Of a stretch of DNA of 64,000 nucleotides, positions 4,855 through 18,907 are shown one piece after another. This DNA comes from Rhizobium sp. WYJ-E13 (GTDB lineage Bacteria > Pseudomonadota > Alphaproteobacteria > Rhizobiales > Rhizobiaceae): NCBI RefSeq assembly GCF_018987265.1, contig NZ_CP076854.1, positions 930,001 through 994,000 of the forward strand, written 5' to 3'. Positions within the stretch are counted from its first letter, which is position 1, and each line of letters begins with the position of its first letter. The translations under genes and the position numbers were made by a program. The notes under the pieces were generated by a model that worked only from the letters and a program-made list of their open reading frames with translations, had not been told where the DNA came from and made no database searches.

Positions 4855-4885
4855 GGTATTCGAGATACCCCTTACGTATTGTTAC
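4855..4885 (+). promoter_or_regulatory. Candidate operator: GGTAT/ATACC palindrome plus TACG-N5-TTAC element
   Basis: An inverted repeat GGTAT-N5-ATACC (4855-4869) is followed by TACGTATTGTTAC (4873-4885), one copy of the 13-bp element also found at 9792, 14716, 14867 and 18728. It lies between the divergent Crp-type gene (start 4820) and the membrane protein gene (start 4965), about 80 bp before the latter. Binding protein unknown; the FixJ-like or FixK-like regulator encoded nearby is the obvious candidate. Confidence 0.5.
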
Positions 4886-4964
4886 GGAGGCCCGGGACCA
4901 TCGACAGGTGTATAAAGCTATTCCCCTTGATGAGAGCGATACGAGAATATCGCGGGAGGTCTCG

Positions 4965-5930
4965 ATGGCATCGGAAGAGGAAGGGGACAGTCGCGCATTT
5001 CAAGACTCTGCAAGCGTGCGTGCACAACTTGACCTTATACTCGCCAGTCCGGAATTCCTTGTCCCTGAGCGCGGACGCCGCTTCCTGCAATATATCGTTG
5101 AAGAGACGCTTGAAGGGCGCAGCGAGCAGCTTAAGGCCTATACGATTGCACAGGCGGTTTTTGGCCGCGATGCCTCCTTCGATGCGCAGAGTGATCCGGT
5201 CGTCCGCATCGAAGCGGGGCGGATCCGTCGCGCGCTCGAACGATACTACCTCGTCTGCGGACGCGGTGACCCGATCCGGATTACCGTCCCCAAAGGAGGC
5301 TATGCGCCGCACTTTTCCCGTGGGGAAGACAGTCCGGATGCGGGCGAAATCTCCGTTCTGCAGAACCGCGAGAACAAGCGGCGCCCCCTCGGGCGGGAGC
5401 GGCCGGCGAGTTATCGAGATCTCCTGTTGCCGATCGGCATCCCCGCGCTGTTCGGGGTCGTGGCTATACTCGCCCTTGTCCGTCCGCTGGAAACCTATCT
5501 CTCCCCACCAAAACCGTTGCCGGCCCCTGCCACATCATCATTGACGAGCAAGATCAGGATTGTTGTCGAACCCTTCGCCGCTCTCGGCGGTACCGTGCAG
5601 GGAGCTGATTTCGTGAAGGGATTGGCCGATCAGCTGATTGCAAAGCTGATGAAGGTGGAAAACCTTGTCGTGCTCGCTCCAGGCCGTTCCAGGACGGAAA
5701 CGACCGGTTCGCTTTTCAACCTGCAGGGAAGCGCCCTCGTCGAGGGCATGATCCTTCATCTGCATGTCCGCCTGATAAACGACGCCGACGGCACGGTTAT
5801 CTGGGCAAATCAATATGATCGAGACCTGCGCGGCCAGACCATTCTCGATGTTGAGGACGAGATCGCCGCACAGATCGCGATGGAGGTTTCGAACAGCCAG
5901 AGGCTGAACGGCACGGGCACCGATCCATAG
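4965..5930 (+). CDS. Membrane protein with conserved N-terminal 'SDPVVRIEAGRIRRAL' domain, short paralogue without TPRs
   Basis: 321 residues from ATG 4965, preceded by GGGAGGT (4954-4960); the frame is open much further upstream, but that part is antisense to the Crp-type gene. Residues about 20-120 form a domain (SPEFLVPERGRRFLQYIVEETL, FGRDASFDAQSDPVVRIEAG, RITVPKGGYAPHF) seen at the N-terminus of many adenylate-cyclase-annotated or TolB-like TPR proteins. One membrane helix follows (LLLPIGIPALFGVVAILALV), then a periplasmic TolB/FlgO-like segment (IRIVVEPFAALGG, VIWANQYDRDL). It is a paralogue of the proteins at 5937-7715 and 18908-20713 but ends before their TPR regions. It is convergent with the next gene, with only 6 bp between. 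Molecular function is unknown. Confidence 0.82.
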   Translation: MASEEEGDSRAFQDSASVRAQLDLILASPEFLVPERGRRFLQYIVEETLEGRSEQLKAYTIAQAVFGRDASFDAQSDPVVRIEAGRIRRALERYYLVCGRGDPIRITVPKGGYAPHFSRGEDSPDAGEISVLQNRENKRRPLGRERPASYRDLLLPIGIPALFGVVAILALVRPLETYLSPPKPLPAPATSSLTSKIRIVVEPFAALGGTVQGADFVKGLADQLIAKLMKVENLVVLAPGRSRTETTGSLFNLQGSALVEGMILHLHVRLINDADGTVIWANQYDRDLRGQTILDVEDEIAAQIAMEVSNSQRLNGTGTDP

Positions 5931-5936
5931 CTTATC

Positions 5937-7715
5937 TTATCTTGCCGACACGGGGTCGACGACCAGTCCTGAGGCGCGCAGCCCGTTCAGGAACCGTTCC
6001 TGGTCCTCCGGCCGCTGCAGGCGGAGCGACACTTCCTGACGGATATTCGTCATCAAAGCCGGCGCGTGGATTTTGAGCCAATCCTGTTCCAGCATGGCTT
6101 CATCAGTCTTTCCGGCCGCTCCGAGAATGGATAGCAGCACAAGGCGGTGCATGGGATTATTGTCGAGATCGGACCGTCTCGACCACTGCTCGGCCTTTCC
6201 GATATCTCCTTTCATGAATGCGCACAAAGCCATGCCGACCTCGTAATAACCTCTGGTGCCGACACCCTTGTTGAGGGCGACCGACAGCAACTCGCAGCCC
6301 GATTGCCATTTCCCCGACATCGCCAGTCGAAAACCGTATTCGCCTGCGAGTTCTACATCATCAGGGTCTGCATCGTAGGCTGCGGTGCCTGCCTTCAGGG
6401 CCTTGTCAATATCTCCCCTGAAGAAGCTCACCTGCATCTGCGCTTGCAGCACGCGGGGATTGTCCGGTGCGAGTGATGTTGCCCGCTCCACCGCAGCGCT
6501 CGCCAGTGCGAGAGGCTGGGTCGACGATGACGTGCCGAGCGTGTAACGGAATCTGATTTCGTCGAGATAGGCCATGGACAGCAGCGCCCAGGACACCGCG
6601 TCATTGGGAAAGCGCTGGGTCGCCTGTTGCAGGCATTCGCGTGCTGCACTGAGACTTTGCACAGTCATGGTCTGGCGGTAGTTGGAATAGGCGAGTGTAC
6701 AGGCATAAGCACTCTGGTTTCCCCTCTGCGCCGGTCGCGCTACCATATCCGCGTCGGTTTGGAAGAGGGCGCCATAGGGCTGCGCGACAGCATTGGCGAT
6801 TAACCGGGCGATATTGCTTTGAATCGCAAGCTCGTTTTGATCTTGAAGATCCGCATCGAAATTATCGGCCCAGATGACCGCTCCATCCAGTTGGCGGACC
6901 AGCCTGGCAACGGCACGCAGCCTGCTTCCATCGAGCTGGACATTGCCCTGCAATGCGTAGTTGGTACCGGTGGCGTGTTCACCACGCAGCGGATCGGCGA
7001 CCACGACGATGTCATCGAACTGGGCGAGCTGCCCGATAATGTCGTCCCTGAGACCACGCGCGATATCCGAACCGGCGTCAGCGGGGCTGCTTTCGGCAAA
7101 AAATTCGATGATCACCTTTGGCTTGGGAGATCCCTGCGGCATCGTTGCGGTTGGAGTATCACGCAAGGACAATGCGGACGTGAGAGCGAGAAGAAGAAGA
7201 GCGACGACGACGGCCAGCGCAGTTCCGAGACCGATAAGGGTGGCCAACCCCGGACGACGTGTTTCCTGAAGCGAATGATCTTGATCTTCGTGTTCGGCAT
7301 TTTGCGCATTATCCGAGACTTCGGCGGGATCTGCCGGGGCCGGCGCCTCCCGCGCATATTCGAAATGCGGGACATATCCACCCTTGGGCACAGTGATGAC
7401 GATGTCGTCCCTCTGGCCTGCGACGAGATAGTAACGCTCGAGCGCCTTTCGTATTCGGCCGGCCTCGATTCGAACAACCGGATCGTTCTGCGGGTCGAAC
7501 GAAGCTTCCCGGCCAAAAACCACATTTGCTATCGTAAATGCCTTCAGGAAGTCCGATCGGCCGGCGAGTGTCTCATTGACGACGAATGCCAGGAAATTCC
7601 GCCCGCGTTTCGGTGCGTGAAATTCCTCGCTTGTGAGAATTCGTTCGACCTGCCGGCTGATTTCGTCAGCTGTTGGCCCAAGACTACTGAAAGCATTGAT
7701 CTTTGCGCTTCTCAT
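5937..7715 (-). CDS. TPR-repeat membrane protein with conserved N-terminal domain (adenylate-cyclase-like annotation family)
   Basis: 592 residues from ATG 7715 (AGGGG upstream); a TTG at 7742 would add nine residues. It shows the N-terminal domain (SEEFHAPKRGRNFLAFVVNETL, FDPQNDPVVRIEAGRIRKAL, VPKGGYVPHF), one membrane helix near residues 165-190 (LATLIGLGTALAVVVALLLLAL), a TolB/FlgO-like domain (PKVIIEFFAESS, VIWADNFDADLQ) and tetratricopeptide-like repeats over the last 270 residues (LASAAVERATSLAPDNPRVL, PDDVELAGEYGFRLAMSGKW). No cyclase catalytic motif is visible, so the common annotation 'adenylate cyclase' is not supported. It is very similar along its length to 18908-20713. Likely a membrane-anchored sensor or scaffold; this is inference. 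Confidence 0.85.
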   Translation of the reverse strand: MRSAKINAFSSLGPTADEISRQVERILTSEEFHAPKRGRNFLAFVVNETLAGRSDFLKAFTIANVVFGREASFDPQNDPVVRIEAGRIRKALERYYLVAGQRDDIVITVPKGGYVPHFEYAREAPAPADPAEVSDNAQNAEHEDQDHSLQETRRPGLATLIGLGTALAVVVALLLLALTSALSLRDTPTATMPQGSPKPKVIIEFFAESSPADAGSDIARGLRDDIIGQLAQFDDIVVVADPLRGEHATGTNYALQGNVQLDGSRLRAVARLVRQLDGAVIWADNFDADLQDQNELAIQSNIARLIANAVAQPYGALFQTDADMVARPAQRGNQSAYACTLAYSNYRQTMTVQSLSAARECLQQATQRFPNDAVSWALLSMAYLDEIRFRYTLGTSSSTQPLALASAAVERATSLAPDNPRVLQAQMQVSFFRGDIDKALKAGTAAYDADPDDVELAGEYGFRLAMSGKWQSGCELLSVALNKGVGTRGYYEVGMALCAFMKGDIGKAEQWSRRSDLDNNPMHRLVLLSILGAAGKTDEAMLEQDWLKIHAPALMTNIRQEVSLRLQRPEDQERFLNGLRASGLVVDPVSAR

Positions 7716-7800
7716 GATCGCCCCTACGACAAGATCACGCAATTATTTAAGTTACTTCTAACGCATCATACCTCACAAGCCTGGGGTTGCAAGTTCTGCT

Positions 7801-8472
7801 TTAGGCTTGTCGAATATAAGCTGACCAGCTGCCGATCGGCGAAGCCTTTGCGGTTTCAAGCGGTTGCGCCGCATCGATGGCAATGGCCATGCGCATGAGC
7901 TCTGCCAGATTGCGCGCGCCCATCTTGGCCATCACATTGGCGCGATGGACCTCCACCGTGCGCGAGCTGATGCCGAGATGATAGGCGATCATCTTGTTCT
8001 GTAAGCCATCGAGCACGCCGGAGAGAACCTGATGTTCGCGGTCCGTGAGCTGACGAAGTCGCGCCGCAACGCTTTCGCAATCGGCCACGGCGCTGCCGCA
8101 CCGCCTTTGCCTCATTGCTCCGTTAATGGCCGAGATCAGCGCTTCTTCCTTCAGCGGTTTTTCCAGAAAATCGGATGCTCCCGCCTTCATCGCCTGAACC
8201 GCGGCGGCGATATCGCCCTGACCGGTAATGACGATCGCCGGCACGTCCGTGCTGACACGCCTTAACCGCTCAAGCAATTCGATGCCGTTGATATCGGGCA
8301 TGCATAGATCGGTAACAAGGCAACTTCGCCCCGACAGCGGCAGAAGTTCCAGAAAGGCTTTCGCACAGCTATGTGCACGAACGGCAAAGCCGGCCGACAC
8401 CAGCAGAAACGTCAGAGATCGCCGGAGCGACTCTTCGTCGTCGACGAGATGGATCGTAAGGTCATTCGCCAT
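7801..8472 (-). CDS. FixJ-family two-component response regulator
   Basis: 223 residues. The receiver domain (about 5-120) has the acidic pair DD 11-12, phospho-acceptor Asp55 (LVTDLCMPD), Thr in VITGQGD and Lys in EKPLKE. The C-terminal LuxR/FixJ helix-turn-helix (about 140-200) reads LTDREHQVLSGVLDGLQNKM, SSRTVEVHRANVMAKM. ATG 8472 has GGAGA upstream, and the gene overlaps the end of the histidine kinase gene by 11 bp, so the two are cotranslated partners. It probably acts as a phosphorylation-dependent activator, and the TACG-N5-TTAC elements in the surrounding intergenic regions are candidate targets. FixJ itself activates fixK and nifA in rhizobia, but the signal here may differ because the kinase has no haem-ligand His. 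Confidence 0.93.
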   Translation of the reverse strand: MANDLTIHLVDDEESLRRSLTFLLVSAGFAVRAHSCAKAFLELLPLSGRSCLVTDLCMPDINGIELLERLRRVSTDVPAIVITGQGDIAAAVQAMKAGASDFLEKPLKEEALISAINGAMRQRRCGSAVADCESVAARLRQLTDREHQVLSGVLDGLQNKMIAYHLGISSRTVEVHRANVMAKMGARNLAELMRMAIAIDAAQPLETAKASPIGSWSAYIRQA

Positions 8473-9685
8473 TGATTGTGGTCTCCGCCAGCGGCAGCGA
8501 AAACGAGAGGATGGAGCCTCCCTGTGTTCCCTTGCGCGCGCTTATGCGGCCTCCATGCGCTTCAATGATACGCTTGGACAATGCCAGGCCCATGCCAAGT
8601 CCGCGCGGTTTACTAGTGACGAAGGGACGAAACAGCGCCTCTTCGATCTCGACGGCAATTCCGCAACCATTATCGGACACGTCGACAACCAGATGCGAGC
8701 AATCATCGGTCCTCGAGTGGATCGCGATCGTCGGCCGCTCGACGCCGTCGGTCGCGTCCACGGCATTGTGAAGAAGGTTCATCAGCACCTGGACGATCTG
8801 GACACGGTCTGCGACTACGATGTCCCGCTCTGCTTCGAGTTGCAAATCGGTGTGAAGGCCTTTCCGGGGTGATCCGGCAAGCCCAAGCGCCGTCGCTTTG
8901 TGGATCAACGCGTGCATCGCCTCCAGTTGTTTCTCGCCGGTGCCGCGCTTTGCAAATTCCCTGATGTTCTGGACGATCGTTCCCGCCCACAAGGCGTGCT
9001 GTGTAATTTCCGACAAGGCTTCACGAAGCTCCGCGCCGTGCCGGCGGCGGTCGTTCGTCATGAGGCGCCCGCACCCCTCGGAGTAAGCGGCGATCAAGGA
9101 GAGCGGCTGAGACAGTTCGTGAGCCAGCGTCGTTGTCATTTCTCCAAGCGCGGCTACTCTTGCGAGACGCGCCAGCTCACACTGAAGCTCCTGAACCTGC
9201 TGCAATGTCTCGCGCTCTGTTCGGAAGTCCTCAAAGATCGCCGCAGCGAAGGTTTCTTTTTCGCCCTGTTCTCGGATGATGGTCAGCGTAGTTGGAAACT
9301 GGACGCCCCTCTTGGTCGTTGCTAGGCCGGCGCGTGCCGCGCCCTGGTCCGCCCAGCGTCCCCTGAGTTTGACATCCGGCGTCGCGGACCAGACGAGGTC
9401 GATCTTGCGGTCGAGCAATTCATCTTCCTCATAACCGAACAGGACCACCGCAGCCCTGTTACAGGCTGAAATTCTATTGTTGCCGGTCATGAAGAACACT
9501 GCGTCCGGTATGTGTTCATAGAGCTGCCGAATCCAGTTCGCCTGTGGCCGGTTATCACCCTTGGACGCAGCACGCACGGGTTCGCGCCGTGCTATTCGCG
9601 TTCCGATGAACGAGGTTCGTGCCGCCAGGCTTGAGACAGGGGAACTGAATTCGGTAGCATGCGGCGACTCCATCTTGGTGGACAT
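8462..9685 (-). CDS. PAS-domain sensor histidine kinase, FixL-like, lacking a haem His
   Basis: 407 residues from ATG 9685 with a strong GGAGGAGA site. There are no membrane segments, so it is cytosolic. A PAS domain (about 50-160: IRQLYEHIPDAVFFMTGNNR, FGYEEDELLDRKIDLVW) is followed by the dimerisation H-box LAHELSQPLSL with His189 as likely phospho-acceptor, then the HATPase boxes (LMNLLHNAVDAT, VSDNGCGI, GLGMGLALSKRIIEAHGG). The H-box resembles FixL (HELNQPL). The only His in the PAS part is His58 at its start, not where FixL carries its proximal haem ligand, so oxygen sensing through haem is unlikely. It overlaps the FixJ-like partner by 11 bp. Candidate element at 9792-9804 upstream. Confidence 0.92.
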   Translation of the reverse strand: MSTKMESPHATEFSSPVSSLAARTSFIGTRIARREPVRAASKGDNRPQANWIRQLYEHIPDAVFFMTGNNRISACNRAAVVLFGYEEDELLDRKIDLVWSATPDVKLRGRWADQGAARAGLATTKRGVQFPTTLTIIREQGEKETFAAAIFEDFRTERETLQQVQELQCELARLARVAALGEMTTTLAHELSQPLSLIAAYSEGCGRLMTNDRRRHGAELREALSEITQHALWAGTIVQNIREFAKRGTGEKQLEAMHALIHKATALGLAGSPRKGLHTDLQLEAERDIVVADRVQIVQVLMNLLHNAVDATDGVERPTIAIHSRTDDCSHLVVDVSDNGCGIAVEIEEALFRPFVTSKPRGLGMGLALSKRIIEAHGGRISARKGTQGGSILSFSLPLAETTINGE

Positions 9686-10129
9686 GGTGGTCTCCTCCGC
9701 CCTTGAGAAGCAATCCAGTGCCTCGACGCTAGTGCCTCGACGGCCTCCTCAACAATGGCGCGAGTTTACCATCTTTGGATGGGGGATCGGTGTAATATCG
9801 CGTAGACTCTATTGGTCTTCTCCTACAACCGGGCCTGCTGAAGGCCCAGCGAGCCAGCGCCTTGGCCCGGCCTCACCTCCATTGATCCGACTCAATGCCT
9901 CTGGCTCGTTGTTCCGCTAGTCTGAGACGTCGTGGGTATATGGCTATTTGAGAGAGCTGGTTCACTGCGAGGAGGGCTCGCGATCGCTGGTGCAACGCCA
10001 AGGCAGGACATGGCGAAATGCAACATCCGCAGACGTACAGGCAGGAAAAACCATGCCGGACGAGTGACTGGCACGCCGAAACGATAGCATCTTGCCGGTC
10101 GACGCCGGTGCATCGTCGGGGAGGGTTCG
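9686..10129. other. Intergenic region of about 440 bp between the kinase gene and the next small gene
   Basis: I see no convincing gene here. Its one notable element is the 13-bp motif at 9792-9804, about 107 bp upstream of the kinase start on the minus strand. Antisense frames around 9892-10390 overlap the small rightward gene and show no family resemblance. Confidence 0.6.
9792..9804 (-). promoter_or_regulatory. Candidate operator, TACGCGATATTAC
   Basis: Minus-strand match to the TACG-N5-TTAC element shared by five intergenic regions of this island. It lies upstream of the FixL-like kinase gene (start 9685), which would allow autoregulation. On the plus strand it reads GTAATATCGCGTA and continues GACTCTATT, resembling the copy at 14716 (followed by ACCTCTATT). 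Confidence 0.5.
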
Positions 10130-10339
10130 GTGATGTGGCGCTTGGTCGCTGAAGCTCCGTTCGAAGAGGACATAGAACTCGCCGTCATCGACGACGAAGG
10201 TACCCATGCCCTGGTCTTTCCTTGCCAACGTCTGCCCGGCGGATGGGCCAACGCCATGACCGGCGAGATGCTTGACATTCACCCGACCCATTGGCGCGCA
10301 TGGCAAATTCAGCGATGTGATCCGTCCGATCTTCATTGA
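10130..10339 (+). CDS. Small conserved hypothetical protein (ending PTHWRAW-type)
   Basis: 68-69 residues from GTG 10130 or the adjoining ATG 10133; GGGGAGGG lies just upstream. It reads MWRLVAEAPFEEDIELAVID, then HALVFPCQRLPGGW and IHPTHWRAWQ. This pattern (an N-terminal APF.xD.ELAV core and a PTHWR.W tail) is familiar from small rhizobial hypotheticals, some related to DUF551-like proteins. It is soluble, with no signal or membrane helix. Function unknown. A leftward 142-residue frame over the same DNA has no comparable pattern and is treated as a shadow. Confidence 0.6.
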   Translation: MMWRLVAEAPFEEDIELAVIDDEGTHALVFPCQRLPGGWANAMTGEMLDIHPTHWRAWQIQRCDPSDLH

Positions 10340-10409
10340 AAGGGACTGCGAATGCCTCGTCAGCCGGATCCCGACAGTTTTCGCTCTCACATCGGACCAT
10401 ATATTTGCT

Positions 10410-10430
10410 AGGTCGGGAACATTCCGACCT
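10410..10430 (+). terminator. Possible hairpin terminator
   Basis: Stem AGGTCGG (10410-10416) and CCGACCT (10424-10430) around a 7-base loop, followed by CTTTCTGCC. It lies 70 bp after the small gene ending at 10339. The T-run is weak, so intrinsic termination is only possible. Confidence 0.35.
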
Positions 10431-10480
10431 CTTTCTGCCTTCGTATCAATTGCAGACGTGCTTTGAATACGGAGCGATCC

Positions 10481-10717
10481 ATGAGCCTAGAACGCGGTCG
10501 CAGAAAACTGATGTTGCGGCTTCCCGATATCCGTCATCTTCTAGCGGAGATAACCAACGAGACACTCGGTGAGATGTTCGAGGCCTATGATCTTGCCGTC
10601 GATGCGTTGGACAGATTTCGGATTCAAAGACCGAGGGAAGATAAGCTGATTACAGAATATGAGCAGCTCTGCCGCGAAATAGAGCAGGAAGTTGTCGTCT
10701 ACTGCACCAGCCGATGA
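10481..10717 (+). CDS. Small hypothetical protein, helical
   Basis: 78 residues from ATG 10481 (GGAG at 10471-10474); a TTG at 10463 would add six residues. The sequence is largely charged and predicted helical (LPDIRHLLAEITNETLGEMF, ITEYEQLCREIEQEVVVYC). No family is recognised. It is convergent with the AI-2E family transporter, 12 bp away. Amino-acid composition looks like a real protein, but there is no independent support. Confidence 0.45.
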   Translation: MSLERGRRKLMLRLPDIRHLLAEITNETLGEMFEAYDLAVDALDRFRIQRPREDKLITEYEQLCREIEQEVVVYCTSR

Positions 10718-10729
10718 GCTTGCCGATAC

Positions 10730-11863
10730 CTATCCGATGTGTTCCGCTTCGGATCCATTTGAGGTCGCCGGCGGCCAGGCCCAGGCTCTCAGCAACTCGT
10801 AGAAGACGCTGAGGACGACCGGCCCAAGAAACAAACCCAGGAGCCCGTGAGAGAGCGTGCCGCCGATGACGCCGATCAGAATAACCGGCATCGGCGTCGA
10901 GAGGCCTTTCGCCATCAGGACGGGCTTCAGAATATTGTCCACGACGGTGATCGGCACCGCAAGGCAGGTAAAGATAAAGGCAGTCGCGAATGGCCAGGAG
11001 AACCACGCCCAGATGACGACCGGCAGCAGCACGAGCCCAGGACCCAGTTGCATCACGCAAAGCATGAAGACCGCAAAGGTCAGGGCACCGCGTGCCGGAA
11101 TGTCAAAGAAGGCAAAGCACACTCCGCAGAGCAGGGTCTGCAGGAAGGCAACGCCGATCACGCCTCGCGAAACATTCCGCACCGTGGTTCCTGCCAACCG
11201 GGCAAAACCGACACCCCTTTCGCCGGCGATCCGGCTCGCCAGCACCTGTATTGCCGCAGCCAGGCGCACGGACCACGTGAGAAACAGCCCGGAGAGTATG
11301 ATCGAAGCGACGAAGCTCAAGACGCCGCCGCCGATCGAGGCGAGCTTTGCGACGACAACACCCATGACCTCACGGATCGGCGCCTGAAACTTGATGATGG
11401 TGGAGGCCAGATCGCCCGCAATCTGGTTCCAGGTGTCATGGACACGCTCGCCGACGACAGGCCATTCCTTGATGGCGGCCGGTGCTGTGGGTAGCGTGAA
11501 GTTTCCCGTCCACAACTTGCCGATCAGTGCCTGCACCGCATCGGCAAAATTGACCGCAACGAGTGCGAGCGGTGCGATAATCAGCACAAGGCAGCCGACG
11601 ACGATGATAACAGCCGCAATCACCGGCCTGTTTCCAATCAGTCGCAAGAGAGTCTGGAACATCGGAAACAGCGCCACTGCGAGGATCGCCGACCAGATGA
11701 CGATCAGTGCGAAGGGCGCGATCAGAACCATCGTCCAGTAGGCGAAAAGCCCGATGATGCCCAACCGGACCAGATCACTTACTCTCGCCTCTATCGAAAT
11801 CTGGCCCGCATCGGTTTTCCGCGCCGGCGTATCGGCTATCTGCTCCATTGTTATATCCGCCAC
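10730..11863 (-). CDS. AI-2E family transporter (YdiK/PerM-like membrane protein)
   Basis: 377 residues from GTG 11863 (alternative ATG 11848). There are paired N-terminal hydrophobic segments (LGIIGLFAYWTMVLIAPFAL, PVIAAVIIVVGCLVLIIAPL), a roughly 90-residue soluble central part, and a C-terminal membrane block with the family hallmark DNILKPVLMAKGLSTPMPVI and GLLGLFLGPVVLSVFYELL. Members include TqsA and PerM-like permeases and some Na+/H+ antiporters, so the AI-2 label is not proof of substrate. It follows the PPK2 gene with a short gap, so it is likely the last gene of the operon DUF3302-SulP-PPK2-AI-2E. Confidence 0.88.
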   Translation of the reverse strand: MADITMEQIADTPARKTDAGQISIEARVSDLVRLGIIGLFAYWTMVLIAPFALIVIWSAILAVALFPMFQTLLRLIGNRPVIAAVIIVVGCLVLIIAPLALVAVNFADAVQALIGKLWTGNFTLPTAPAAIKEWPVVGERVHDTWNQIAGDLASTIIKFQAPIREVMGVVVAKLASIGGGVLSFVASIILSGLFLTWSVRLAAAIQVLASRIAGERGVGFARLAGTTVRNVSRGVIGVAFLQTLLCGVCFAFFDIPARGALTFAVFMLCVMQLGPGLVLLPVVIWAWFSWPFATAFIFTCLAVPITVVDNILKPVLMAKGLSTPMPVILIGVIGGTLSHGLLGLFLGPVVLSVFYELLRAWAWPPATSNGSEAEHIG

Positions 11864-11881
11864 GTTCCAGGCCGGCAGTGC

Positions 11882-12721
11882 TTACGACGTCATGTCGGGC
11901 ACGATATGGCGGATGCTGCTATCCTCTATGAAGTCGGCCGGACGCTTCTGACGTTTTCCGAGATCGGGCTCGTCAAACTTCACCCGCTCATAGGGAATGG
12001 ACTGCAGGATATGCGAGATGCAGTTGATCCGCGCGCGCTTCTTGTCGTCCGAAGGCACGATCCACCATGGTGCATGGTTGGTGTCGGTCATCCGCAGCAT
12101 CTCGTCATAGGCGCGCGTATAATCCCACCAGCGCTGATAGGATTCGAGATCCATGGGGCTGAGCTTCCACTGCCGCACCGGATCGTCGATCCGCCGCCTG
12201 AAGCGCCGCTCCTGTTCTTCCTCGCTGACGGTCAGGAAATATTTGAGCAGAATGACGCCGCTTTCGACGATGGCCGCTTCAAAGCGGGGCGCGAGCTCCA
12301 GAAAACGCCGCGCTTTCTTATCGCTGCAGAAGCCCATGACACGATCGACGCCCGCCCGATTATACCAGCTGCGGTCGAATATCACGACCTCGCCGGCCGC
12401 CGGCAGGTGAGCGATGTAACGCTGCATATAGCTCTGCGATTTCTCCCGATCTGTCGGCGCAGGCAGCGCCACGACGCGGAAGACACGCGGACTGACCTTT
12501 TCCGTTATCCGCTTGATCATTCCTCCCTTTCCGGCGGCATCGCGTCCCTCGAAGATGATGACGATTCTTGCGCCGGCTTTCTTCACCCAGGCCTGCAGAT
12601 GAGCGATTTCGACCTGCAGCCGGCCGACTTCTTTCTCATAATCCCATGATTTCTTTTTCTTTTTATCCTTGCCGCGGCTCTCATCGCCGGTGGCCTGCTT
12701 CGGCTTGTAATTCTCGTCCAT
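11882..12721 (-). CDS. ppk2: Polyphosphate kinase 2
   Basis: 279 residues from ATG 12721, preceded by GAAGGAGGGAG. PPK2 transfers phosphate between inorganic polyphosphate and nucleoside phosphates in the cytosol. It shows a lysine-rich N-terminal tail, Walker A FEGRDAAGKGG (57-67), Walker B and lid segment VIFDRSWYNRAGVDRVMGF (113-131), then FLTVSEEEQERRFRRRIDDP, WKLSPMDLESYQRWWDYTRA and PWWIVPSDDKKRARIN, all PPK2 signatures. Length fits single-domain class I enzymes acting on NDPs. It starts 20 bp after the SulP stop. A dead CYTH gene lies 5 kb away; CYTH proteins are tripolyphosphatases, so polyphosphate handling may once have been broader here. Confidence 0.95.
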   Translation of the reverse strand: MDENYKPKQATGDESRGKDKKKKKSWDYEKEVGRLQVEIAHLQAWVKKAGARIVIIFEGRDAAGKGGMIKRITEKVSPRVFRVVALPAPTDREKSQSYMQRYIAHLPAAGEVVIFDRSWYNRAGVDRVMGFCSDKKARRFLELAPRFEAAIVESGVILLKYFLTVSEEEQERRFRRRIDDPVRQWKLSPMDLESYQRWWDYTRAYDEMLRMTDTNHAPWWIVPSDDKKRARINCISHILQSIPYERVKFDEPDLGKRQKRPADFIEDSSIRHIVPDMTS

Positions 12722-12741
12722 GGTTCTCCCTCCTTCTATCA

Positions 12742-14457
12742 CTAAAGTGCACTGCTCGCCGGCGTGGCACTACCGATCTGGTCGATATCGCCGATCAGTG
12801 TCCGCAGGGCTTCTTCTCTGCCGTTAAAAATATTCTCGGCGCCGACCATCTTGATGACTCCGGCCCGTTCGAGAATGACCCGGCTTTCGTCGCTGAGATC
12901 GGCAAAGGCGAAGATGATGTTTCGATTCACGAGGATTTCGGCGACGGCCTCGAGCGCGGTCGCGCCGGTGCTGTCGATTTGTGTGATGGCGCTGGCATCG
13001 AGCACCAGACATTTGGTATCCGCGGGAAGCTCCTTTGCCACCGATGTCAGCCGGATGCGAACGTAATCAGCATTGTAGAACAGGATGCTGCCCTGCACCG
13101 CGAAGACGGCTGCGCCCGGGACGGGTCGGGCCTCCGGATAGCGCTTGAGATCGAAGAAACCGTGCCGTCCCTCGATGCGGCCAAGAAGGCCGTCGCGCGG
13201 AAACATGGTCTTCCGCAGGAGATAGACGAAGGTTGCGGCAATTGCGACGATGACGCCATTGAGGACACCGAAGCTGATCGCTCCCCACATGGCGATCAGC
13301 GCGAAGACGAATTCCATACGGCTGATGCGCCAGATCTTCCTGAGCTCGGGAAGATCGATCAGGCTGATGGCAGCCATTGCAAGGATTGCGGCGAGCGCGG
13401 GAATGGGAAGGATGCGCAACGCAGCATGGAGGAAAACCAGCACCGCGATCAGTGCTGCCGCGGAGACCAGTCCTGCGAGCTGCGACACGCCGCCCGTCGA
13501 CAGATTTATGGCGGTTCGAGAATCCGATACGCTGACCGGAAACGAACCGAAAAGCCCGGGCGCTATATTGGCCGCGCCAAGCCCGACCAACTCCTGATTT
13601 GCATCGACCTCGTCACCGGTCCGCGACGCGAAGCTGCGCGCCGCCACAATGCCGGAGCCGAAGCTGACAAGAAAGATCGCGACCGAACCGGTGACGATCT
13701 TGTCTAGGGGCATCTCATGAAGCGGGGGTAGGGAGAAACTCGGAAGTCCGCGCGGTATGTCCCCAACGACGGCAATGCCTTGGCCCCGAAAATCGAAAAT
13801 CGCGGAAAGAACGACCGAGATAACGACGACCAGGACAGGACCTGGAATTCTGAAAGGAAAAAAACGGAGGATCCACAGCAGCGCGAACATGCTGAAGCCA
13901 AAAATGAGCGACGGCCAGTGGATCAGACTGCTTTTGGCAAGAAATTCGACGAGCGGCTGGATCAACCCATCGGATTCGATCTTCATCCCCGTGAAACGGC
14001 CGATCTGTCCCACAAGGATCGAGAGGGACACGCCGGCAAAGAACCCGACCAGAATGGGGCGGGAAAGAAAGTTTGCGAGGACGCCAAGCCTCAACAATTT
14101 GGCGGCGATATAGCAGACGCCGACGCCGAGGGCGAGGGCTGCCGCGATCGCCACACGGTCGCCGCTGCCCGTGGGATCGGCAGCTATGATAGTGCCCATT
14201 GCAGCCGCCAGCACCGACATTGACGCGGCGTCGGGCCCCACGATCAGCAGCCGGGAAGGCCCGAAAATCGCATAGGCGATCGGCGCGACGATGCTCGCAT
14301 AGATGCCGGTCTCCGGCGGCAGGCCGGCGATAGCGGGATAGGCGATGGCGCTCGGCAGGCCGACGGCGGCGATCGACAGGCCGGCCGGGATATCGCTCCG
14401 GAGCCAGCCTCTGTTGAAGCCAGTCAAGCCTCGCAACATCGGAAGACTGCCTATCAC
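12742..14457 (-). CDS. SulP family inorganic anion transporter with STAS domain
   Basis: 571 residues from GTG 14457, with AAGGAG upstream. Residues about 20-420 hold 10-14 membrane segments with the SulP entry motif (GLSIAAVGLPSAIAYPAIAG, LPPETGIYASIVAPIAYAIF, VGPDAAS) and the conserved NIAPGLFGSFPVS. A C-terminal cytoplasmic STAS domain (about 455-560) follows (FYNADYVRIRLTSVAKEL, CLVLDASAITQIDSTGATAL). SulP proteins carry sulfate, bicarbonate or dicarboxylates; the substrate is not deducible. It sits between the short DUF3302-like gene and ppk2 in a leftward operon. Confidence 0.93.
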   Translation of the reverse strand: MIGSLPMLRGLTGFNRGWLRSDIPAGLSIAAVGLPSAIAYPAIAGLPPETGIYASIVAPIAYAIFGPSRLLIVGPDAASMSVLAAAMGTIIAADPTGSGDRVAIAAALALGVGVCYIAAKLLRLGVLANFLSRPILVGFFAGVSLSILVGQIGRFTGMKIESDGLIQPLVEFLAKSSLIHWPSLIFGFSMFALLWILRFFPFRIPGPVLVVVISVVLSAIFDFRGQGIAVVGDIPRGLPSFSLPPLHEMPLDKIVTGSVAIFLVSFGSGIVAARSFASRTGDEVDANQELVGLGAANIAPGLFGSFPVSVSDSRTAINLSTGGVSQLAGLVSAAALIAVLVFLHAALRILPIPALAAILAMAAISLIDLPELRKIWRISRMEFVFALIAMWGAISFGVLNGVIVAIAATFVYLLRKTMFPRDGLLGRIEGRHGFFDLKRYPEARPVPGAAVFAVQGSILFYNADYVRIRLTSVAKELPADTKCLVLDASAITQIDSTGATALEAVAEILVNRNIIFAFADLSDESRVILERAGVIKMVGAENIFNGREEALRTLIGDIDQIGSATPASSAL

Positions 14458-14475
14458 CGCTAGCTCCTTATGCTT

Positions 14476-14631
14476 TCACCGTTGGCGCATTTGCGTCTTG
14501 GCATTCCACTCGCATCGCCGGGACTGGCGCTTGGCCATGAAATGAGGAATGTCGTGGATCGCAATCACTGCGTAAAACAGGGTATCGATGACAAAGACCG
14601 GCACGCCCAGAGCAAAATAATCAAGAAACAC
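14476..14631 (-). CDS. Short DUF3302-like (YiaW-type) inner-membrane protein, probably truncated
   Basis: 51 residues from GTG 14631, directly after GGAGGGGA. The first 35 residues (FLDYFALGVPVFVIDTLFYA, then IAIHDIPHFMAK) match the start of DUF3302/YiaW proteins: FLDYFALG, one membrane helix, and HDIP followed by a basic residue run. Family members then continue with a conserved RNHPH motif and a second helix; here the frame instead reads RQSRRCEWNAKTQMRQR and stops 18 bp before the SulP start. I infer a C-terminal truncation. It is the first gene of the SulP-PPK2 operon, and the motif at 14716-14728 lies 85 bp upstream. Confidence 0.6.
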   Translation of the reverse strand: MFLDYFALGVPVFVIDTLFYAVIAIHDIPHFMAKRQSRRCEWNAKTQMRQR

Positions 14632-14715
14632 GGCTGCTCCCCTCCGGCCGGTTCGGCCGAGCCTTTCGATTGCTATCGACAACAGGATATTAGGCCCGTT
14701 TTGGCGCGGAGGCCC

Positions 14716-14728
14716 GTAGCATCGCGTA
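14716..14728 (-). promoter_or_regulatory. Candidate operator, TACGCGATGCTAC
   Basis: Minus-strand variant of the TACG-N5-TTAC element with one difference (CTAC for TTAC), 85 bp upstream of the DUF3302-like start codon at 14631, so placed to control the leftward membrane-transport and polyphosphate operon. Confidence 0.45.
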
Positions 14729-14866
14729 ACCTCTATTCACGCGTCGGCAGCAGACCCGCTTAAGCAGATCGTCCCTGCGGAAAATGAAGAAGGCGGGATC
14801 GGTGGGACGGGTGCCATTCCGGTCTCCGCGTACCGAATTGGCCAGGTTTTTTGGAAGCCGGCTAAT

Positions 14867-14885
14867 GTAAGATCGCGTATTTTAC
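14867..14885 (+). promoter_or_regulatory. Candidate operator, 19-bp imperfect palindrome
   Basis: GTAAGATCG-C-GTATTTTAC. The minus strand contains TACGCGATCTTAC, the shared element. The right arm reversed is GTAAAATAC, also present as an isolated half-site at 18701-18709. It lies 72 bp upstream of ATG 14957. Confidence 0.5.
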
Positions 14886-14956
14886 GTCTGCTGCCGATCC
14901 GCTTGATATATATAGTTTCTGCATCTGCTTGGCGCAGTTTGACGGCGGGGGCGGGG

Positions 14957-15271
14957 ATGGTCTCGGGAGAGCAAGGTTCGACATATTTGTCCGTCCTTGA
15001 GACGGCGGAGACTTATTTTCCCAATCAGAAGCGGCTGGTGCAGCGGCTTTTCTATGTAAACGAACCCTTTCACAGCATGTGCGAGGATCTCACGGCTGCG
15101 GCACAGGCGCTCGCGCATGTCGAGCGGTTACCGGAGGCGGTTAGGGAAGCACGGCGGCTGGAATACGCGGGTCTCGTCGATGCCCTCCTGAAAGAGATGG
15201 GGGAGGCCATCGCCCAATCGAAAATTGTGGTCCTCAGGCGGTCAACGCAGACTGGCCCGAAGCCTCTGTAG
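14957..15271 (+). CDS. Hypothetical protein, soluble and helical
   Basis: 104 residues from ATG 14957; an upstream start at 14903 would add 18 residues but runs through the promoter-like region. The sequence is mostly helical (YLSVLETAETYFPNQKRLVQ, MCEDLTAAAQALAHVERLPE, LEYAGLVDALLKEMGEAIAQ). No signal peptide or known domain is seen. It is followed after 41 bp by the DUF3300 gene on the same strand and is likely cotranscribed. The candidate operator at 14867-14885 precedes it. Function unknown. Confidence 0.62.
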   Translation: MVSGEQGSTYLSVLETAETYFPNQKRLVQRLFYVNEPFHSMCEDLTAAAQALAHVERLPEAVREARRLEYAGLVDALLKEMGEAIAQSKIVVLRRSTQTGPKPL

Positions 15272-15312
15272 CAGTATCTGTCGTTCAAGAACTCAAGGGA
15301 GGTCCGTGCGTG

Positions 15313-16707
15313 ATGAAAGCAATTTCCCGCAAACTGCTTGGCGGATTGTCGGCACTGGCAATTATTGCGTTGCAGCCGGCGCTCCCAATGCGCGCGCAGA
15401 CGCAGACCCCCGCACCGACAGCAGCACCAGCGCAGACAAGCACAGAACAGCCCGCAACCGCACTCCTGTCCGATGATGAGCTTGAAGTGCTCGTAGCGCG
15501 GATCGCGCTCTATCCGGATGAATTGGTCGCGGTAATTTCCGCCGCTTCGCTCTTTCCTCTTCAGATCATTGAAGCACAGCGCTTCCTCGAAGCGAAAAAG
15601 AAGAATTCCGACCTCAAGCCCAAAAGCGATTGGGACGGCAGCGTCGTTTCGCTGCTGAACTACCCAGACATCGTCAAGATGATGAGTGAGGATCTCGATT
15701 GGACGCAGTCGCTCGCCGATGCGCTCGCCAACCAGCAGAAGGATGTCTTGATTGCCATCCAGCAGCTTCGTGACGAAGCGGTGGAAAAGAACATCATCAA
15801 GACGGATGACAAGGTGACGATCGTCACCGAAAACGACAACATCATCATCCGGCCGACCGATCCGGAGAAGATCTATATCCCGCAATATCCGCCGGAAATG
15901 CTCTACGAACCGGGCTATGCGTCGGAACCGATCTCCTATTATCCGGATTATTACGACAGCTATTATTATCCCGGGGCAGGGTTCTTTGCCGCTGCGGTCA
16001 CCGGGTTGACCTGGGCTGCCATTGTCAACTGGGACGACTGGGGCGTGTGGGGCGGCCGCTGGGATGGCGATATCGACATTGACTGCAACAATTGCCTGAA
16101 CGACCGCAACTTCAACGGAAAGATGAAGTGGAACGACGTCGACTGGAGCAAGGTCGACCGGAGCAAGCTGAACATCAGCAAGGACCAGCTTGCGAAGATG
16201 GACCGGTCGGCGATCAAGTCCGGCTTGCAGGCCGACAATCGCAACCAGTTGCGCAACAGGGCCAACGACATCCAGGCGAGCCAGCGGCCCGGCAATCGCG
16301 CTAATTCGGCGCGTGCAGAAGATATCCGCAAGAGCACGGCTCAGGGCCTAAAGGACAGACCGCAGGCAACTAGGCCAACGGCAGCAAATCGACCGGCGGC
16401 GGCCAATCGGCCGACCGCATCCCGGCCCGAGGCACGTCCTCAGAAGGCCGCCAATCGCCCGTCCAAGCCTGCGCAGAAATCCGTCAATAGGCCCAATAAA
16501 CCGCAGATGGCTGCCAGACCCGATAATCGCGGACGCCAACCGAGCGCGCTCGGCAATGTCCAGTCCGGTCGTCGTGAGGCGGTTGCCTCGAAACGCGGAT
16601 CGCAGAGCATGGGCGCAAATCGCCAGTCAGCTCGCCCCGCACAGCATCGGCCACGCCCGCAGGGTGGTGGCGGTCGCGGTGGCGGTGGCGGTGGCAGACG
16701 GCGGTGA
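15313..16707 (+). CDS. DUF3300 domain-containing secreted protein
   Basis: 464 residues from ATG 15313 with GGGAGGTCC upstream. A signal peptide (KLLGGLSALAIIALQPALPM, cleavage near MRAQ) is followed by the DUF3300 domain at about 50-240 (LEVLVARIALYPDELVAVIS, WDGSVVSLLNYPDIVKMMSE, EKIYIPQYPPEMLYEP) and a Tyr/Trp/Asp-rich stretch. The C-terminal 180 residues are low-complexity, Arg/Asn/Ala/Pro-rich repeats (RPTAANRPAAANRPTASRPE) ending in a Gly/Arg tail. This is a periplasmic or envelope protein of unknown function. DUF3300 genes commonly sit next to DUF2950 genes, as here. Confidence 0.9.
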   Translation: MKAISRKLLGGLSALAIIALQPALPMRAQTQTPAPTAAPAQTSTEQPATALLSDDELEVLVARIALYPDELVAVISAASLFPLQIIEAQRFLEAKKKNSDLKPKSDWDGSVVSLLNYPDIVKMMSEDLDWTQSLADALANQQKDVLIAIQQLRDEAVEKNIIKTDDKVTIVTENDNIIIRPTDPEKIYIPQYPPEMLYEPGYASEPISYYPDYYDSYYYPGAGFFAAAVTGLTWAAIVNWDDWGVWGGRWDGDIDIDCNNCLNDRNFNGKMKWNDVDWSKVDRSKLNISKDQLAKMDRSAIKSGLQADNRNQLRNRANDIQASQRPGNRANSARAEDIRKSTAQGLKDRPQATRPTAANRPAAANRPTASRPEARPQKAANRPSKPAQKSVNRPNKPQMAARPDNRGRQPSALGNVQSGRREAVASKRGSQSMGANRQSARPAQHRPRPQGGGGRGGGGGGRRR

Positions 16708-16736
16708 GACCTCTTTTCAGCTCAGGGAGTAACCTC

Positions 16737-17675
16737 ATGGGACGCCAATCGATCGTAATTCCGCTTATGTTCGCGACAGTACTTTGCGCAATGCCGGCGC
16801 CGCCCGTGCTTTCGCAGGAGCAGACAGATCTTGCTGACTACAAGGCGGCAACGCCATCGCCGAAATTCGACAGTCCTGAGCTTGCGCTCGATAAGCTCAA
16901 ATCGGTGCTGGGCTCGAACAATATCGACGATCTTGCCACGTTGCTCGGCTTGAAGCCGGACAAGCTGCGCTCGAACAATGAGGCGATGATCGCCTACGGA
17001 TTGATCCGCGAAGGCGCCGAGCGGCGGGTGGTTTTGCGGGATTCAGAAGGCATGAAGATCGTTGCGATCGGGGATCGGCTTTGGCCCTTGCCGTTTCCGC
17101 TGACCGAGGGCAAGGACGACAAATGGTCTTTTGACACTCAGCGCGGCCTCGAAGAGATCATCAATCGCCGCATTGGCGAAAACGAACTCGCCACCATCGA
17201 CACCATGCATGAATATGTCGCGGCCCAGTATCAATTTGCATCCGAGGACCGTGATGGCGACGGCATCTATGAGTTCGCAAAGAAATTGATCAGCAGTCCA
17301 GGCAAGCTCGATGGCTTGTACTGGGATCCGAACGTTTATCCCGAGGAAAGCCCGGCAAGCGCGCTGGTCGAGACAGCTGCCTTCGGCGCCGCCAAACGCG
17401 GGGAGGGCTATTACGGCTATCGCTACCGCATCCTGACGTCTCAGGGAGACAACGTGCTTGGCGGCAAGCAAAGCTATATCATCAACGGTTATATGACCGG
17501 CGGCTTTGCGCTCATCGCCTGGCCGGTCAAATATCGGGTCACCGGCGTGCAGACATTTATGGTCAACGGGACGAGCGTCATCTACCAGCGCGATCTGGGA
17601 CCGGAAACGGAAGCGCGCGCGGCGGCGATCAAGGATTTCAATCCGGATGCCAACTGGACCGTCGTAAGCGAATAG
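16737..17675 (+). CDS. DUF2950 domain-containing secreted protein
   Basis: 312 residues from ATG 16737 (AGGGAGT upstream); the in-frame start at 16704 lies inside the DUF3300 gene. A signal peptide (IVIPLMFATVLCAMPAPPVLSQ) is followed by the DUF2950 body: SPELALDKLKSVLGSNNIDD, DTQRGLEEIINRRIGENELA, YQFASEDRDGDGIYEFAKKL, GEGYYGYRYRILTSQG and INGYMTGGFALIAWPVKYRV, which are family hallmarks. It is predicted periplasmic. It follows DUF3300 after 29 bp, the usual two-gene unit; function unproven. Confidence 0.92.
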   Translation: MGRQSIVIPLMFATVLCAMPAPPVLSQEQTDLADYKAATPSPKFDSPELALDKLKSVLGSNNIDDLATLLGLKPDKLRSNNEAMIAYGLIREGAERRVVLRDSEGMKIVAIGDRLWPLPFPLTEGKDDKWSFDTQRGLEEIINRRIGENELATIDTMHEYVAAQYQFASEDRDGDGIYEFAKKLISSPGKLDGLYWDPNVYPEESPASALVETAAFGAAKRGEGYYGYRYRILTSQGDNVLGGKQSYIINGYMTGGFALIAWPVKYRVTGVQTFMVNGTSVIYQRDLGPETEARAAAIKDFNPDANWTVVSE

Positions 17676-17819
17676 GATCTTAGTCCATGCTGCCGGTATC
17701 GCCGGCGGTATGCGCAAGACAGCGGCCATGGCGCTGTTAGAATAACGTTCGCTCCCATCCATGCGGCAGGTTCGGCCGATCATCCTCGCTCGCCATTCGG
17801 TCCCGGCGGCGTCAGTTCC

Positions 17820-18141
17820 TCATAGGCGCGCGCGCGCCAAAGGCGTCCAAATCTCGGCTTCTGCCATCATGAAGAACGCTGTCGCAATAATATGGTCGGC
17901 GGCGTGGAGCAGGAGGTTCCGTGCCTCTTCGACTGGAATCTCATATTCCTTTCGTCCGGGCGAGGCCGGCGCGAAATCTGATCGTCAGACGCGCGGAACG
18001 CCCGTCCATCAAGCGGACACGGATGGAGTTCTGATCCTGGCGGTAAAGGTAGGCCTCCTGCTGGAGGTCCAGGTCGTCGGCGCAAACGCGCCCACGGCCG
18101 TTGCGGACCGGGAACGTTCACTCGATCTCGGTCGCTCTCAA
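17820..18141 (-). pseudogene. Decayed CYTH-domain (triphosphatase-type) gene
   Basis: Leftward from about 18141 the frame reads LRATEIE, a TGA stop (18118-18120), then TFPVRN, LQQEAYLYRQDQNSIRVRLM, DGRSARLTI, followed by a frame change into KEYEIPVEEARNLLLHAADH and a stop at 17820. The CYTH consensus is EIERKFLV, RQGYL, VRVRxxDGxAxLTxK and EYEIPxxxAxxLL, in this order; the stop falls exactly at the Arg after EIE. The product would be about 105 residues against 150-200 for the family. CYTH enzymes hydrolyse triphosphates and tripolyphosphate and bind metal through the EIExK acidic set. Nonsense, frameshift and shortening make this a dead gene. Confidence 0.7.
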
Positions 18142-18176
18142 TTCGGTATTCCCTCGCTCATGCCCGACGTTGCCGG

Positions 18177-18644
18177 TCAGTCGACAGGCGGCTCCCAGGT
18201 GAGGAAGAAGCCCACATCCCCAGGCATGCCATCGGGAAAGTTGATGATCATCGCCTTGAGCCCGTAGCCTTGAGGCTTGGCGACCGTCTCGAAGAGTTCG
18301 AGAAGTTCCTTTGCCTTTCCCTGCAGTGTTTTCTGCCATCCAGGAAGGTTGTTGTTGATGGCTCGGCCGCTATCCGTGCAGAAGGTCGAGGGGAAACTGT
18401 AGATCAGCGCCTCGTATTTGCCGTCTGCAGCGGCTTTCATCACCAGTCGCTTGATGACGGCGCGTTCCGTTTCACCGATCTGTTTGCGGAAGAAATCCTC
18501 GACGAATTCCGAATGTTTCTTCGCTTCACGCGCCTTGATCTTTTCGTTGCGCTCCATTTCCAGAAGCTGGAGTTCCAGAGCACGTTTGCGCAGCTCCTCT
18601 GCGCTTGCCATGGATTGGGTTGTGGACGTCTCAGGTGATGTCAT
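18177..18644 (-). CDS. Hypothetical protein with coiled-coil segment
   Basis: 155 residues from ATG 18644, preceded by GGAGGAGA; the frame stays open to 18794 but the extra part covers the operator region. An N-terminal charged helix (SAEELRKRALELQLLEMERN, EKIKAREAKK) is likely a coiled coil. The C-terminal part (YEALIYSFPSTFCTDSGRAI, GYGLKAMIINFPDGMPGDVG, FFLTWEP) looks like a small folded domain. There is no signal or membrane helix and no family that I recognise. The palindrome at 18722-18740 lies 78 bp upstream. Confidence 0.68.
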   Translation of the reverse strand: MTSPETSTTQSMASAEELRKRALELQLLEMERNEKIKAREAKKHSEFVEDFFRKQIGETERAVIKRLVMKAAADGKYEALIYSFPSTFCTDSGRAINNNLPGWQKTLQGKAKELLELFETVAKPQGYGLKAMIINFPDGMPGDVGFFLTWEPPVD

Positions 18645-18700
18645 CGCCGTCTCCTCCAGAGTGCATGGGCGATGATAGAGCGCGCAGGCAGCCGAAGGCA

Positions 18701-18740
18701 GTAAAATACACGTCCGATCCGGTAGAATACGGTATCTTAC
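18701..18740. promoter_or_regulatory. Candidate operator pair: half-site GTAAAATAC and palindrome GTAGAATAC-G-GTATCTTAC
   Basis: A 19-bp inverted repeat at 18722-18740 contains TACGGTATCTTAC (18728-18740), the shared element. A further half-site GTAAAATAC sits at 18701-18709, exactly 21 bp before GTAGAATAC. The site lies between the divergent genes starting at 18644 and 18908 and could serve both. It is the most symmetrical copy in the window. Confidence 0.5.
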
Positions 18741-18907
18741 GCCGGCATATGGCCCGCGAAGACGTGTTAGGCCATCAGGTGATCCATTGCCCAAACTTTG
18801 TTTTATTAGCGTTTTCTACTAAATGACATTGCCGTCATGGCGACTTCGGACTATCGTCCAAGGCAGTATGCTGCAGGTTGTTATCAGTCGGATTCTTGGG
18901 GGAGCCG

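Follow-up and report, generated by a model that had tools for sequence, protein, structure and literature searches.

Which regulator, if any, coordinates the genes of an island in Rhizobium sp. WYJ-E13 in which FixLJ-like and FixK-like genes lie beside three related membrane-protein genes? The island sits within a 64,000-nucleotide (nt) stretch of DNA (RefSeq assembly GCF_018987265.1, contig NZ_CP076854.1, positions 930,001 to 994,000 of the forward strand), here called the window, to which all coordinates refer unless said otherwise. An initial annotation of this DNA had noted a 13-bp element at five promoters of the island and had proposed the FixJ-like regulator as its binder. Our analysis shows that the motif and its regulon are real. 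We consider it probable that the motif serves as operator for an accessory regulon of the Rhizobiaceae whose most likely binders are the membrane proteins themselves, wh1, tpr1 and tpr2, acting as ToxR/CadC-like one-component activators.

A conserved TAC repeat at the promoters of the island

All five 13-bp sites were found with the sequences and at exactly the coordinates first given, and the 10-bp spacing of their two TACs was borne out. The consensus is TACG-N5-YTAC, the second half being mostly CTAC rather than TTAC in relatives, and it is extended either by an upstream TAGA or by completion to GTA-N13-TAC. In the window, each site stands at a near-constant distance from a -10-like hexamer, counted below from the last TAC:

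4873-4885, plus strand: wh1 promoter site TACGTATTGTTAC; TATAAA at 4911-4916, 25 nt downstream
9792-9811, minus strand: site TAGAGTCTACGCGATATTAC at the promoter of the histidine kinase (HK, gene hk) and response regulator (RR) pair; TAAACT at 9763-9768, 23 nt downstream
14716-14735, minus strand: site at the DUF3302(-HlyD)-SulP-PPK2-AI-2E promoter; TAATAT at 14687-14692, 23 nt downstream
14867-14885, plus strand: GTA-N13-TAC site GTAAGATCGCGTATTTTAC at the promoter of a small open reading frame (ORF), DUF3300 and DUF2950; TATATA at 14907-14912, 21 nt downstream
18701-18740, minus strand: g18 promoter, with a palindrome at 18722-18740 and an in-phase GTATTTTAC at 18701-18709; TATCAT at 18672-18677, 23 nt downstream

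These spacings put the repeat between about -48 and -36, the location typical of class II activators.

To follow the sites through related rhizobia, 20 regions were fetched via the response regulator and their promoters aligned with the window. Sites resembling AATAGAGNCTACGCGATACTAC lie upstream of hk in 15 of 18 regions, the window included, and the three exceptions are distant loci with kinases 47-49% identical. Between fnr and wh1 lie ATTCGAGATACCCCTTACGTATTGYTACGGAAGC and GGTGTATAA; TACGN5YTAC is present in 15/16 of these intergenic regions, again counting the window, and the remaining one (L072) has a single change. Between SulP and DUF3300 there are typically two sites, GTAGCATCRCGTAACCTCTA facing DUF3302-SulP and GTAGGATCGCGTATTTTAC facing the small ORF and DUF3300, with at least one site in 13 and both in 12 of 15 regions. 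Regulator-less genomes keep this arrangement: both sites occur in seven of their eight regions (G059 not counted), and that of G025 has none within 700 bp. The g18 promoter is laid out as GTAGGATACCGTATCCTAC, 12 nt, GTATTTTACTGCC and then TATCAT, 23 nt past the TAC of GTATTTTACTGCC. The linkage of the motif to the kinase gene, SulP-PPK2-AI-2E and DUF3300-DUF2950, as originally proposed, is thus supported by conserved sites at these promoters.

Two assignments had to be changed. The site at 18728-18740 exists, but conserved spacing gives it to minus-strand g18 (start near 18644), and it may or may not also act on the membrane-protein gene at 18878. Control of all three domain-sharing membrane proteins is supported for wh1 (4965) and fails for tpr1 (5937-7742), whose upstream region has the motif in 0/16 orthologous regions, window included, and a TTGMAA-N(15-19)-TAT promoter in 16/16. 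The "weaker form" described at 7759-7772 before the third paralogue was accordingly rejected as a motif site; it covers the minus-strand -10 of this sigma70-like promoter:

7765-7792, minus strand: tpr1 sigma70-like promoter TTGCAA-N16-TATGAT, with TTGCAA at 7787-7792 and TATGAT at 7765-7770

How specific the motif is depends on its form. The window holds six exact copies of TACGN5TTAC where 0.18 would be expected, a count reached in none of 100 shuffles, and four of the six lie in the island. The other two, at 46072-46084 and 48727-48739, lie within long ORFs of the catabolic half, where none had been noticed before. Allowing one mismatch leaves a weak excess (18 vs 12.2 expected; 3 of 100 shuffles as high). 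In the whole 6.9-Mb genome the 13-mer occurs 42 times, 36 of them outside the window, against 217 for the reversed control pattern; specificity therefore comes with the extended forms and not with the 13-mer by itself. Across 60 genomes of the genus, again with reversed patterns as controls, the form TAGANNYTACGYGATNYTAC occurs 61 times in 34 genomes (control 0) and the palindromic GTA-N13-TAC form GTANNATACNGTATNNTAC 35 times in 31 genomes (control 1). With up to two mismatches, TAGANNYTACGYGATNYTAC has four sites in the WYJ-E13 genome against none for the control, one of them at a chromosomal dehydrogenase (C1:3172570). The palindrome with two mismatches was uninformative there (6 vs 4 control), and TACGNNATNNTAC alone showed no genome-wide enrichment (14 vs 11 control). 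A one-mismatch site also lies at C1:1093533.

The motif travels with a membrane-protein family

The candidate binders and the kinase are encoded as follows:

4965-5930, plus strand: wh1, predicted winged helix, probable transmembrane helix and CadC/TolB-like domain; proposed binder family
5937-7742, minus strand: tpr1, wh1-type N-domain plus TPR; own sigma70-like promoter, no motif
18878-20713, plus strand: tpr2, wh1-type N-domain with TPR; transcribed divergently from g18, with an uncertain start codon
7801-8472, minus strand: FixJ-like response regulator (Response_reg and GerE)
8462-9685, minus strand: FixL-like PAS histidine kinase

Both exact extended forms are missing from 24 of the 60 congeners, of which G018 has near forms and five have a variant. 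The membrane-protein family with the predicted winged helix, here the winged-helix family (E<=8.2e-63), is present in all 36 motif genomes and in 1/24 others (1e-15). An RR orthologue (at least 58% identity) is present in 25/36 and 0/24, respectively (Fisher 1.4e-8). Both cut-offs, 58% for the RR and 1e-60 for the winged-helix family, were set after the tables had been seen. The lone family-positive genome without the motif, G018, has two near sites that fall outside the exact patterns. Eleven motif genomes lack an intact RR orthologue, G059 through a kinase-regulator fusion, and one of them, G003, is only 82% complete. With G059 and the fragmented G003 left out, the winged-helix gene, SulP, PPK2 and the small ORF are common to 10/10 RR-less locus sets, those of G001, G052 and G018 included.

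One genome is particularly instructive. In G007 (L186) the HK and RR genes have been lost between AI-2E and tpr1, and sites persist at four promoters: the former hk site now precedes tpr1, and those of DUF3302, DUF3300 and g18 are retained. No FNR-like gene was found beyond wh1 in the fetched piece. Since the motif persists here and in 10 genomes without an orthologue of at least 58%, and since the membrane proteins track it better, we reject the FixJ-like regulator as sole binder as the best reading. A clade of regulators 47-49% identical to the RR was considered as a substitute and also set aside, since it has members in G004 and G013, where both exact forms are missing.

The association extends beyond the comparison set. 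A set of 80 named winged-helix loci contains 83 copies of the extended motif against 3 for the control, and the motif is present at 58 of these loci: 30/43 without a regulator in the piece, 28/37 with one, and 6/7 from Sinorhizobium/Ensifer. These pieces span only +-6 kb, so absence from them carries little weight. In seven further motif-less genomes with winged-helix genes, GTATGTTACGGTTACCTAC stands between an HlyD-like gene and the winged-helix gene in G053, G026, G011, G047 and G039, and no site was found at the winged-helix genes of G038, G030 or a second G053 locus. Two further paralogues in the WYJ-E13 genome have isolated core matches only.

Loci L205, L207, L208, L209 and L210 hold a diverged island with its own conserved variant site. 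Such islands comprise an HlyD-like gene and a winged-helix gene, with DUF3300/DUF2950 or g18/SulP/PPK2 nearby.

A candidate membrane-bound activator

Members of the family are currently annotated as 'TolB-like protein', 'adenylate cyclase' or hypothetical. Their N-domain is predicted to be an OmpR/PhoB-type winged helix, with fold comparison as the one line of support. In the wh1-type protein a helix is predicted at 154-179 after the N-domain and is probably membrane-spanning, and the fold of the C-domain resembles TolB-N and the CadC periplasmic domain. The TPR part gave weak NCBIfam matches of HilA/EilA type (E 0.004-0.01), far below cut-off.

From the sites, their conservation, spacing and co-occurrence we infer the following mode of action. 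The sensors would have a cytoplasmic winged helix, a single membrane-spanning helix and, in the periplasm, a CadC/TolB-like domain, followed by TPRs in tpr1 and tpr2, and would be driven by a periplasmic signal. Two winged-helix domains would then sit head to tail on the two TACs, which are separated by one helical turn. The bound repeat, with its centre at about -42 and spanning the -35 position, would allow the activator to recruit sigma70-type polymerase to a promoter with its -10 beginning 21-25 nt further on. Genes switched on in this way would be wh1, the HK-RR pair, DUF3302-HlyD-SulP-PPK2-AI-2E, DUF3300-DUF2950 and g18, and in some strains also a lactate-type 2-hydroxyacid dehydrogenase and an aspartate decarboxylase-antiporter pair. 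The target set, with its decarboxylase-antiporter, lactate-type dehydrogenase, PPK2 and envelope proteins, suggests acidity, envelope stress or oxygen limitation as the signal.

Several results weigh against binding by these proteins. The count of motif-less genomes with a family member rises as the E-value is loosened, to 5, 8 and 12 of 24 at 1e-45, 1e-30 and 1e-12. The wh1 promoter of G007 carries no site. A winged helix was not recovered by Pfam, by a PDB profile search (0 matches) or by hhalign, and no OmpR-type chain is among the 50 matches listed for the N-domain by a plain Foldseek search. Because of the dependence on the cut-off and the missing site at wh1 in G007, our confidence in this explanation is very slightly lower than it would otherwise be; we still hold it to be probable.

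Alternative explanations

FxkR is an OmpR-type regulator, and a protein of this kind, an OmpR-family response regulator encoded elsewhere, could bind the motif instead. Direct-repeat geometry fits an OmpR fold, and the WYJ-E13 genome has 32 PF00486 matches above cut-off to draw on. The K-box of the hFixL-FxkR system, given as GTTACA-N4-GTTACA in PMC4999443, likewise has two TACs 10 bp apart. However, it differs in its flanking bases, and the best matches in the window are three mismatches away; there are 17 of these where 10.7 would be expected (a number equalled or exceeded in 4 of 100 shuffles), and two overlap motif sites. Moreover, a core OmpR-type regulator should leave its sites more widely, whereas 24/60 congeners lack both exact extended forms, as an accessory binder predicts. 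We regard this alternative as unlikely.

Unlikely too is a FixLJ-type circuit, in which the local FixJ-like RR, once phosphorylated by the FixL-like kinase, binds the motif and thereby controls its own operon, and another FixJ-family regulator substitutes where the RR is missing. Wherever the RR is present the motif is present (25/25 genomes), none of the 24 motif-less genomes has the RR, and the motif stands before the HK gene. The RR is also close to FixJ, whose known site is described in PMC4999443 as an imperfect palindrome, and the g18 form is palindromic. RR relatives of 48-49% identity are encoded elsewhere in G001 and G052, two of the ten RR-less motif genomes, and in G018. Against this stand the 11 of 36 motif genomes without an intact orthologue and the four retained promoters of G007. 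In addition, what the sites share is a direct rather than an inverted repeat. The FixJ sites TAAGTAATTTCCCTTA and GTAMGTAG, the latter a consensus from in vitro selection (SELEX), differ from the motif; GTAMGTAG has no match in the window, which is weak evidence given 0.23 expected.

That the sites merely reflect promoter sequence or chance, with no regulator of their own, as the 42 genomic copies of the bare 13-mer (some inside ORFs) and the counts for TACGNNATNNTAC might suggest, is highly improbable and already contradicted by the near-zero controls for the extended forms, by footprints over 16-18 loci and by the near-constant spacing.

Genes associated with the motif

We return to wh1, tpr1 and tpr2 as the preferred binders and to the genes that they would control. 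Besides those listed above, the window encodes:

10730-14457, minus strand: SulP-PPK2-AI-2E operon
14521-14631, minus strand: DUF3302 remnant, 37 of 115 amino acids (aa) matching
14957-17675, plus strand: small ORF (no Pfam domain), DUF3300 and DUF2950
18180-18644, minus strand: g18, conserved 155-aa protein, no Pfam family above cut-off

At 14458-14631 DUF3302 is reduced to its 37 matching residues and no HlyD match precedes SulP; DUF3302 and HlyD are both present in relatives, Rhizobium sp. Pop5 among them.

Genomic context was checked for 30 of the 61 TAGANNYTACGYGATNYTAC sites and 30 of the 35 palindromes. The former lie at DUF3302/SulP (16), hk (7), D-2-hydroxyacid dehydrogenase (3) and DUF900 alpha/beta hydrolase genes (3), leaving one (L165) without an assigned gene; g18 adjoins the palindrome in 29/30 loci, the five palindromes outside this count being in separately fetched pieces (L076, L126, L127, L137). 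The lactate-type dehydrogenase (E<=1e-100) occurs in 6/60 genomes, each with a site 180-260 bp upstream. The L168 enzyme is a D-2-hydroxyacid dehydrogenase whose best models are of D-lactate type, at scores below their cut-offs. Aspartate 4-decarboxylase (above the NCBIfam cut-off and followed by an aspartate-alanine antiporter) was found in 5/60 genomes, three of them with a GTA-N7-GTA core within 150 bp upstream; L182 has a TAC-N7-TAC variant, and the homologue in L185 (65% identity) has no site upstream.

At L125 (9943), L137 (9909), L181 and L183 aspartate 4-decarboxylase has the palindrome upstream, joined after 13 nt by a second unit of GTA type; in L125 the antiporter follows the decarboxylase. 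In L148, L149 and L157 the extended motif stands at position 1501 before the DUF900 hydrolase gene (family checked for L149). The L127 palindrome lies near an Orn/Lys/Arg-type decarboxylase (scores below cut-offs), which we do not count as a target because the direction of this palindrome is ambiguous.

The FixLJ-like pair appears to have an input of its own, as the following features suggest:

4161-4820, minus strand: FixK/FNR-like regulator
9882-9895, minus strand: FNR/FixK-type box TTGAGTCGGATCAA, between hk and the 68-aa ORF
10133-10339, plus strand: conserved 68-aa ORF, downstream of the FNR box

An FNR-type box precedes hk in 18/18 regions, at 175-210 bp in 15 and at 72-104 bp in the three distant loci, which suggests FixK-like input to HK-RR. 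The FNR-like protein has a CRP fold with HTH_Crp by Pfam and scores 138 bits against the NCBIfam FixK cut-off of 300.

In G059 (L141, 13528-14451) the N-terminal part of the kinase (residues 1-195) is fused in frame with the C-terminal part of the regulator (residues 91-221).

Relation to known systems

The local two-component pair resembles FixLJ in that both the kinase transmitter and the regulator are nearest FixL and FixJ. FixJ is the best PDB match of the regulator, which just misses the NCBIfam FixJ cut-off (NF006900, 251.5 bits vs 255), and the kinase reaches 253 bits against a FixL cut-off of 850. Unlike FixL, the kinase has no His in its PAS domain aligned with that of the FixL RHD, the haem-binding position.

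HilA/EilA-type regulators combine a winged helix with TPRs, as tpr1 and tpr2 may do, and HilA has no transmembrane helix; the predicted helix here is thus a difference, and the NCBIfam scores are far below cut-off. Compared with CadC/ToxR-like regulators, the present family has an N-domain that escapes Pfam, a C-domain that is also TolB-N-like, TPRs in two of three paralogues, and three paralogues in one island. The CadC site, as described in PMC5430869, is AT-rich TTA-x4-T read head to head, whereas the motif here is a direct TAC repeat.

Our searches of a limited literature collection listed no account of this regulon or of ToxR/CadC-like signalling in root-nodule bacteria. PMC4653623 singles out DUF3300 and DUF2950, both induced in two RNA-seq studies on root-nodule bacteria, with no hint there of their function. 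The operator, the promoter layout and a candidate membrane-bound sensor now place these genes in a testable regulatory context. More broadly, and at odds that we put close to even, Rhizobiaceae may harbour a widespread, unrecognised family of ToxR/CadC-like activators with a TAC-N7-TAC operator, controlling an acid- or fermentation-type envelope stress regulon that includes the nodule-induced genes DUF3300-DUF2950, to which the FixLJ-like and FixK-like genes would be subordinate, dispensable additions. If true, this would assign a role to proteins at present called TolB-like or adenylate cyclase, and would add ToxR/CadC-like signalling to the root-nodule bacteria.

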